Shown here piece by piece: positions 21,642-24,048 of a stretch of 64,000 nt of DNA. Position numbers and translations under genes: made by a program. The DNA is from Rickettsiales bacterium (GTDB lineage Bacteria > Pseudomonadota > Alphaproteobacteria > Rickettsiales > JABCZZ01). The notes below the pieces were generated by a model, which was not told the DNA's origin, ran no database searches, and saw nothing but the letters and a program-made list of their open reading frames with translations. Numbering within the stretch: the stretch's first letter is position 1; every line of letters starts with the position of its first letter. The DNA lies in the NCBI GenBank assembly GCA_035765535.1, contig DASTXE010000001.1, positions 1-64,000 on the forward strand, given 5' to 3'.

Positions 21642-21645
21642 TATG

Positions 21646-22155
21646 CTAGCTGGGTTTTCCCGGTTGGCGCAGCCGTTCACCGAACCAGCCGATCACGCGC
21701 TGTAGATGCTCGGGATTGACCGTCTTTACATAATTACCGGCGAGCCCCGCAATGGTTTGCGCGCGTAACGCATCGCGCCACGCTTTATCGGCTTTCATCA
21801 TCGCGACATGAATACCGCAAGGAAGACGGTAGCCATCCGGATTACAGGAGGCAAGGGGGCCGCGCTGGCGAATTTCCGTACAGCGGAACGTGGGCTCTTT
21901 CCCGTCGATGGCTTCCACTATATCAAGCAGTGTAATATTCTCCGCTGCCCGCAACAGGCGATAGCCTCCTTTGGGGCCGGGAACCGATTCCACAATACCC
22001 GCATTGGCCAGCGCCTGAAGATGTTTGGCGAGATAGGTTTCCGACAGGCCATGATATTCCGCGAGCACTTTAGTTGGCAACGTCGCCCCGGTCGGCATGC
22101 CGGAAAGTACGCTGACGCAATGCACAGCCCACTCAATTCCTTCGTTTAATTTCAT
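21646..22155 (-). CDS. Rrf2-family transcriptional regulator with three cysteines
   Basis: 169 residues. A winged helix-turn-helix (about 10-70, with KVLAEYHGLSETYLAKHLQALANAGIVES and GPKGGYRL) is followed by Cys92, Cys104 and Cys113, the region that holds an Fe-S cluster or acts as a redox switch in IscR, NsrR and relatives. Spacing C-X11-C-X8-C. It is divergent from an AhpD-like gene, with 138 bases between starts containing a promoter and a dyad. It probably represses that gene in response to oxidative or nitrosative signals. Confidence 0.88.
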   Translation of the reverse strand: MKLNEGIEWAVHCVSVLSGMPTGATLPTKVLAEYHGLSETYLAKHLQALANAGIVESVPGPKGGYRLLRAAENITLLDIVEAIDGKEPTFRCTEIRQRGPLASCNPDGYRLPCGIHVAMMKADKAWRDALRAQTIAGLAGNYVKTVNPEHLQRVIGWFGERLRQPGKPS

Positions 22156-22192
22156 ATCTCATCCATAAGAATAATTTTATCGGATTTTATCA

Positions 22193-22244
22193 TGGACAAT
22201 TTATATCCACGATATTATATTCTGGTTAAATCCTATCCGGGATT
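22193..22244 (+). promoter_or_regulatory. Promoter and candidate operator for the AhpD-like gene
   Basis: TGGACA, 17 bases, TATATT gives a good sigma-70 promoter. At the expected transcription start lies the dyad AATCC-TATCCG-GGATT (22229-22244), well placed for a repressor such as the divergent Rrf2 protein. Confidence 0.5.
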
Positions 22245-22293
22245 ATAACGCGTTTAAGTGTATAGTGCAACTAACCGAAAAGGAGATAAGACC

Positions 22294-22761
22294 ATGAAGG
22301 AACGCCTGAATTTTATCAAAGCTGCGCCAAGTGCCTACAAGGCCATGAGCCAGCTTGAACAATATATCCGTAACTGTGGACTCGAAATGCCACTGATCGA
22401 ACTGGTCAAAATCCGTTCTTCGCAGATCAATGGCTGCGGCTATTGCCTCGATATGCATACGAAGGATGCGCGTGCGGCAGGGGAAACGGAACAGCGTATA
22501 TATGTTTTGCCAGCCTGGAGGGAGGCGCCGTTCTATACACCGCGTGAACGCGCTGCACTTGAATGGGCGGAGACGGTGACGCTGGTTTCGCAGACCCATG
22601 TACCGGATGAAGTGTATGAGCGCGTAAAGCAACAATTCACAGAAGAGGAACTGGTTAATTTGACGTTGGTCATTAACACAATCAATTCATGGAACCGCCT
22701 TGTCATCAGCTTCCGTCCTGAAGTCGGTGGCTACCATCCGGGACAGCATGCCGCGGCGTAA
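22294..22761 (+). CDS. Carboxymuconolactone decarboxylase/AhpD-family protein
   Basis: 155 residues from the ATG with AAAGGAG at a normal distance; an in-frame GTG 12 codons earlier lacks a site. The AhpD core SSQINGCGYCLDMHTKDARAAGE holds the CxxC-x(2)-H redox motif of alkylhydroperoxidases, here CGYCLDMH. The family reduces peroxides with thiol cofactors, or is of unknown substrate. The redox motif and the divergent three-Cys Rrf2 regulator fit a peroxide or nitrosative-stress response. Confidence 0.9.
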   Translation: MKERLNFIKAAPSAYKAMSQLEQYIRNCGLEMPLIELVKIRSSQINGCGYCLDMHTKDARAAGETEQRIYVLPAWREAPFYTPRERAALEWAETVTLVSQTHVPDEVYERVKQQFTEEELVNLTLVINTINSWNRLVISFRPEVGGYHPGQHAAA

Positions 22762-22770
22762 TAAGAGCGA

Positions 22771-22802
22771 TTCATGCCTCGCGTGAAAGCGCGGGGCATG
22801 AA
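22771..22802 (+). terminator. Hairpin after the AhpD-like gene
   Basis: 13-bp stem TTCATGCCTCGCG/CGCGGGGCATGAA (one T-G wobble) with a 6-base loop, 9 bases past the stop. There is no T-run. Confidence 0.55.
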
Positions 22803-22817
22803 CATGGCGATTACAGG

Positions 22818-22846
22818 TTGTTGTGAATCGCAGATTGTTATATATT
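22818..22846 (+). promoter_or_regulatory. Promoter candidate for a small RNA
   Basis: TTGTTG, 17 bases, TATATT. The -10 is good and the -35 weak. Transcription would start near 22853, just before a structured segment that ends in a terminator. Confidence 0.4.
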
Positions 22847-22852
22847 TCTATA

Positions 22853-22982
22853 GTCGACAAAGGACATGATCGGCAATGGTAAGCCCGATCCGTTTCTCGA
22901 AAGGAAGCGTCCTGTTCCACTCATTATAAGTGTGAACCCGCGGCAAGCTAGGCACAATGTGCCGAAGCTTGGGCGGGTTTTG
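22853..22982 (+). ncRNA. Candidate structured small RNA (about 130 nt)
   Basis: No credible ORF here. The sequence folds into a three-way junction: P1 AGGAC/GTCCT (22861-22865 with 22909-22913), P2 GATCGG/CCGATC (22868-22873 with 22885-22890), and P3 GTTTC/GGAAGC with a TCGAAA loop (about 22892-22908). A three-tier hairpin follows and ends in TTTTG. It has its own promoter candidate, and the downstream gene appears to have a separate promoter (CTGACA, 17 bases, TATTTA at 23001-23029). This favours an independent RNA over a riboswitch. It matches no family I can name. Confidence 0.5.
22935..22981 (+). terminator. Three-tier terminator hairpin
   Basis: Nested stems AACCCGC/GCGGGTT, CAAGCT/AGCTTG and GGCAC/GTGCC, with small internal loops, followed by TTTG. 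Confidence 0.75.
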
Positions 22983-23048
22983 TCATATTAAAGGTATTAT
23001 CTGACAAATTTCTCCCAGGCTATTATTTAACCTTAAGGAGGATTAGTC

Positions 23049-23366
23049 ATGCCTGTAATTGATGTTAGTGAGCGTCTTATAACGCAGATCAATGTATTTA
23101 CTGTTCAACCTGAAAATCAGGAAAGACTCATAGAGTTGCTTAAAGAAGCTGCGCATTATGTCAGCGATGTACCAGGCTGGGTTTCCGCTTCTTTGCATCG
23201 CAGTCTTGATGGAAGGCAGGTGGTTAATTACGCGCAATGCCGGAATTATACAGCGCAGGAAGCGGTCATGGATAAACTTAGAAAGGGTGGCTTCTTTGAA
23301 AGGAACAGCCGATTAGGAGTTGCCCATCCATGCCTATATGAAGTGGCATATACTTTAGATAAATAA
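23049..23366 (+). CDS. Antibiotic-biosynthesis-monooxygenase-like (ABM) domain protein
   Basis: 105 residues after a strong AAGGAGG. A single ferredoxin-like ABM domain: INVFTVQPENQERLIELLKEA, then VPGWVSASLHRSLDGRQVVNYAQC and a C-terminal VAYTLDK strand. Members are small cytosolic dimers: quinol monooxygenases, haem-degrading enzymes or proteins of unknown activity. No catalytic assignment is possible. It stands alone downstream of the candidate small RNA. A 10-bp inverted repeat (23376-23385 with 23434-23443) follows and could terminate both convergent genes. Confidence 0.85.
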   Translation: MPVIDVSERLITQINVFTVQPENQERLIELLKEAAHYVSDVPGWVSASLHRSLDGRQVVNYAQCRNYTAQEAVMDKLRKGGFFERNSRLGVAHPCLYEVAYTLDK

Positions 23367-23418
23367 AGAGCCGAAAAGACCGGAAGATTCGGTTTCAGCA
23401 GGTCACATTAAAGTGTTC

Positions 23419-24045
23419 CTAGTGCACTAGATTTTCCGGTCTTGTCACCGGATTGCGGAAGGATGTTTTCGGCATGAACAGACGCAGCTTTTCCGTGAAG
23501 CTTTGAAATTCCTCAGCATCAATAACGCCTATCTGTTTGAGCCAGGCAAATTTCTGCATTTCTTTTTCACGGTCATTGGCAAAATTTACAAACCCGTGCA
23601 ATTCTCGCATACGCGCGCGCCAGCGCGTCTTAATCATTTCCATGATGCGATCATGGTGCGTACCATCCATGATACGGATTTTTCCATCGGCAACATTCAG
23701 TAAGGTATATCTAACTTCTACTCTCCACAGGCAAAGTGCGATACCGGAAAGAATAAGAACGCTTGAGATAACATCGATTGCCGTACCCGCAACTTCCGTC
23801 AGGTGCGGAAAGAAGCTCGGATGCAGCAACGCTACAGCCAGCGAGAACATATAGAGGAACATACCGGTGCGGTAAAAATAGCTGTAGCGCATAGTGGCGC
23901 TGGTGGGCTTGGCGACATCTACATCTTCATAACGAAACCTGCTGCTGAGGGCTCCGCTGCGATCATTATAGCTGAAAAGCGCATCCTCATCGCCAAACTC
24001 GAATTTCAGCGTAACGCCGTGTTTTTTCTGCGTGATGGTTTCCAT
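23419..24045 (-). CDS. Membrane protein of unknown function, downstream of secF
   Basis: 208 residues. A hydrophilic N-terminus of about 55 residues is followed by two hydrophobic helices (about 57-75 and 85-108), then a cytosolic-looking basic/aromatic C-terminal half (WRARMRELHGFVNFANDREKEMQKFAWLKQIGVIDAEEF). I do not recognise a family. It starts 3 bases after the secF stop, so it is translated from the same message, but a role in secretion is only guilt by position. Confidence 0.82.
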   Translation of the reverse strand: METITQKKHGVTLKFEFGDEDALFSYNDRSGALSSRFRYEDVDVAKPTSATMRYSYFYRTGMFLYMFSLAVALLHPSFFPHLTEVAGTAIDVISSVLILSGIALCLWRVEVRYTLLNVADGKIRIMDGTHHDRIMEMIKTRWRARMRELHGFVNFANDREKEMQKFAWLKQIGVIDAEEFQSFTEKLRLFMPKTSFRNPVTRPENLVH

Positions 24046-24048
24046 GGG

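Follow-up and report, generated by a model that had tools for sequence, protein, structure and literature searches.

Structured 3' end or small RNA? A folded intergenic segment between ahpD and an ABM gene in a Rickettsiales bacterium

The 64,000 nucleotides of Rickettsiales DNA analyzed here (the window) contain a folded segment between the stop codon of an ahpD gene, at 22761, and the start codon of an ABM gene, at 23049, both on the + strand, which raises the question of which transcript the segment belongs to and whether it is an RNA in its own right. The first-pass annotation had described it as a free-standing small RNA in a redox-stress context. The genes surrounding the segment are as follows:

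22294-22761, + strand: AhpD-core/carboxymuconolactone decarboxylase family protein, upstream neighbor (PF02627, E 8e-23; TIGR00778)
23049-23366, + strand: ABM (antibiotic biosynthesis monooxygenase fold) protein, downstream neighbor (PF03992, E 1e-7)
21646-22155, - strand: Rrf2-family regulator, divergent from ahpD (PF02082, E 4e-29)
23419-24045, convergent with the ABM gene: protein of 208 amino acids with a hydrophobic middle, with no match in Pfam or NCBIfam

The domain identities of Rrf2 and of the AhpD core agree with the proposed context; the redox role itself would follow only from the identity of these neighbors, and both appear to be part of the same lineage-specific block as the segment. 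Along the gap, we found a hairpin without T-tract, an AT-rich stretch (22838-22853) that precedes the structure and then the terminator, a three-way junction, a weak hairpin, a terminator-like hairpin and a hairpin over the Shine-Dalgarno sequence of the ABM gene. The first structured elements are:

22770-22802, + strand: post-ahpD hairpin, TTCATGCCTCGCG...GCGGGGCATGAA, near-perfect and directly 3' of the ahpD stop codon (-25 kcal/mol, z -6.1), no T-tract
22861-22913, + strand: three-way junction (22858-22917: -18.0 kcal/mol, z -2.3)
22918-22932, + strand: small hairpin CACT/AGTG that lies between the junction and the terminator (-3.1 kcal/mol, z -1.5)
22935-22981, + strand: intrinsic-terminator-like hairpin of three tiers with a TTTT tract (22934-22984: -29.6 kcal/mol, z -5.2)

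RNA folding recovers each of the three stems previously proposed for the junction, all of them at the positions claimed: P1 (AGGAC/GTCCT, 22861-22865 and 22909-22913), P2 (GATCGG/CCGATC, 22868-22873 and 22885-22890) and P3 (GTTTC/GAAGC, 22892-22896 and 22904-22908), which contains one G-U pair. The three-tier terminator is likewise present and recovered. The 132 nucleotides between 22853 and 22984 show a predicted energy of -51.7 kcal/mol, compared to -36.9 ± 3.8 in shuffled copies (z -3.9), with none of the 200 shuffles equally stable, and this z value is matched by about 1% of the 512 stretches of the same length across the window. In the fold of this stretch, GACAA (22856-22860) can pair with TTGTC (22980-22984). 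The terminator hairpin accounts for most of this excess, and the junction alone is modestly above chance, two of 200 shuffles being equally good. This result, together with the lack of detectable relatives of the segment, is what would be expected if only the terminator were functional and the junction had arisen by chance in intergenic DNA free of constraint. We consider this unlikely, as the junction lies near the terminator and keeps its stability in all the longer stretches folded. With a z of -5.5, the reverse complement of these 132 nucleotides is no less stable against its shuffles, so the strand does not follow from folding potential; the T-tract and the G-U pair of P3 favor the + strand.

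The geometry of P1, P2 and P3 is tRNA-like, with a linker of two nucleotides after P1, none between P3 and P1, and GTTCCA after P1, whereas an anticodon arm and a T-loop consensus are missing. A tRNA-like fold was rejected, since ARAGORN at default thresholds and the Rfam tRNA model were both negative; an ARAGORN match appears only at the halved threshold, a setting without control.

The tiers of the terminator-like hairpin (CCCGC-AAGCT-GGCAC, 22937-22977) are followed by TTTTGTCA, and its energy is the lowest among the 388 T-tract sites of the window. Judged from these sequence features, the intrinsic terminator is probably real, and a transcript 3' end at this position is well supported by prediction. 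In addition, a 7-base inverted repeat, TTTGTCA/TGACAAA, is found at 22980-23009, with its arms about 16 bases apart, and overlaps the terminator tail; its GACAAA recurs at 22856.

The position at which such a transcript would start is linked to the promoter, for which a candidate had been proposed:

22818-22846, + strand: promoter-like TTGTTG-17-TATATT (3/6 and 5/6 matches, 8/12 in all)

This sequence exists but is at chance level, as at least one site of 8/12 is found in 97% of the base-shuffled copies of the intergenic region, and it fails a standard scan. Scanning of the gap between ahpD and the ABM gene for other promoters gave none above chance, the best also being 8/12, so the promoter of a free-standing unit would be putative. 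Upstream of ahpD there is a site of 10/12, TGGACA-17-TATATT, at 22193, although the number of sites in the region scanned is about that of the shuffles.

On this basis, we tentatively prefer to read the segment as the folded 3' untranslated region and terminator of the ahpD transcript, a lineage-specific non-coding 3' module on the + strand. Transcription from the ahpD side would end at the intrinsic terminator near 22978-22981, which would insulate the ABM gene downstream. As the post-ahpD hairpin shows no T-tract, the first terminator-like site downstream of ahpD is that at 22935-22981, and we infer that ahpD transcription reaches it, with no separate promoter for the RNA. The junction, as part of the 3' untranslated region, may shield the end from nucleases, and could also be excised as a small RNA. 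The stability of the terminator hairpin within the window, its position as the first such site after ahpD and the contrast between the chance-level promoters of the gap and the 10/12 site upstream of ahpD all argue for this interpretation. So does the non-coding score of the open reading frame of 41 codons (22866-22991) that runs through the entire structure: its codon score is -0.25, with a wrong-frame median of -0.29 and an in-frame 5th percentile of -0.003. A short protein gene was rejected accordingly, the score resembling wrong frames and lying below the in-frame 5th percentile; the segment is taken here to be non-coding, although a low score needs some care, since even the ABM gene, despite its family match, reaches just -0.12.

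A bacterial mRNA 3' untranslated region with intrinsic terminator shares with the segment the stable GC-rich hairpin with T-tract and the location at the first terminator-like site after the gene; compared to a typical one, the segment adds a three-way junction and lies about 220 nucleotides past the stop codon, which is long for a 3' untranslated region. Also at odds with the preferred interpretation, several other candidate terminators of the window have T-tracts longer than TTTTGTCA, and the AT-rich 22838-22853, the structure, the terminator and the GACAA/TTGTC pairing would fit a stand-alone small RNA as well.

An independent small RNA is possible, its simplest rival being a structured 3' terminus on the ahpD mRNA. 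It would be a free-standing RNA of about 130 nucleotides, starting near 22853, ending near 22981 and possibly acting in trans, which we regard as doubtful. A compact fold that beats 200 of 200 shuffles, a strong terminator, a suitably spaced promoter-like element and the absence of a coding signal are all consistent with it, but the promoter is at chance level, and the ABM leader does not exceed random targets in predicted pairing with the RNA. Furthermore, no Rfam family matches the segment, either at the gathering threshold or at E≤5, and no homolog was found in genomes of the order or the class, so that there is no covariation to draw on.

The covariance-model search of alphaproteobacterial genomes that the first-pass annotation had suggested gave no homolog above the chance level, whether in 263 genomes of the order or in 385 drawn from the class. 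With a whole-RNA model built from the single copy, only the window itself matched among the former; the latter gave two matches (per-genome E 0.02-0.03), a number below that expected by chance from so many genomes, and one of them omits the junction. A junction-only model in 37 relatives gave nothing convincing: there were two weak matches lacking all or much of P3, and the stronger sits within a coding frame. A DNA search of 55 relatives returned the window as sole match, and no second copy was found in the same genome. None of the 25 matches of a viral 15-mer scan shows the RNA by model; nor do the Sinorhizobium meliloti plasmid neighbors of an ahpD relative, where the next gene encodes a sigma factor. 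A literature search on the gene combination found no paper. Since models of a single sequence miss relatives beyond moderate divergence, and stricter filters applied in the larger scans, remote homologs are possible, and a single sequence without relatives leaves comparative analysis silent on selection for the fold. From these searches, the segment may be single-copy and lineage-specific.

Small RNAs of narrow distribution are well documented in Alphaproteobacteria, and in S. meliloti eleven transcripts are restricted to strains of this species (PMC3927594); an orphan RNA at this locus would thus be nothing unusual within a known kind, and no feature in the data distinguishes it from such RNAs. 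The lineage-restricted trans-encoded small RNAs of the Sinorhizobium-only families are likewise intergenic and folded, with a terminator-like 3' hairpin and a narrow lineage, but they were observed as transcripts, while the segment is known from sequence alone and its promoter is at chance level. That it is a newly arisen, lineage-specific small RNA, a trans-acting regulator that arrived or evolved with the redox block of Rrf2, AhpD and ABM, seems quite unlikely. Should the transcript prove real, it would add another case of an orphan small RNA that originated next to redox genes in a recently acquired block.

The region next to the ABM gene raises another alternative, in which the segment is a 5' leader of this gene, attenuator or riboswitch-like, whose structured domain decides terminator formation. 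The element that bears on it is:

22998-23052, + strand: hairpin over the ABM Shine-Dalgarno sequence (TCTCC/GGAGG) and start codon (-12.8 kcal/mol, z -2.1)

In the fold of 22818-23110, the Shine-Dalgarno sequence and the AUG of the ABM gene are predicted to be paired. The sequence AAGGAGG and the start codon would be masked by TCTCC and GAC, respectively, and this hairpin could reflect translational control or chance. Such masking, and an aptamer-like junction followed by a terminator 67 bases upstream of the ABM gene, agree with a leader. Nevertheless, we find a leader very unlikely: folding shows no competing, mutually exclusive antiterminator of the kind that defines a riboswitch or attenuator, blocking the 3' arm of the terminator is unfavorable by 12 kcal/mol, and the same junction forms whether the terminator is present or blocked. 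Searches with the ABM protein covered order, class and phylum samples and a genome collection; the nearest relative found (L069, 48% identical) lacks such an RNA and has an upstream region of just 87 bases, and the RNA model (R1) gives no match close to the other tested relatives of ABM. The weights given to the four explanations are judgements and were not computed. The ahpD 3' untranslated region, the small RNA and the leader agree on a + strand transcript ending near 22981, which is well supported, and differ in its start and role.

Finally, the distribution of the surrounding genes was compared among relatives:

21643-24048: block of rrf2, ahpD, RNA, ABM gene and the gene of the 208-residue protein, about 2.4 kb, between argB and secF; missing in congener G002

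In G002, argB adjoins secF, with about 115 bases between them. AhpD is absent in the seven relatives tested (7/7), and ABM in all 262 other genomes of the order. The direct argB-secF junction of G002 is clear; absence elsewhere in genomes G001-G003 counts for little, as these are only 53-66% complete. The simplest reading of these comparisons is that the block was gained in this lineage, with loss in the others as the alternative. The ABM gene is lower than its neighbors in both GC content (43%) and codon score. Downstream of it, towards the convergent gene, a 16-base inverted repeat, GAAAAGACCGGAAGAT/ATTTTCCGGTCTTGTC, with a spacing of 42 bases, is located at 23373-23446.
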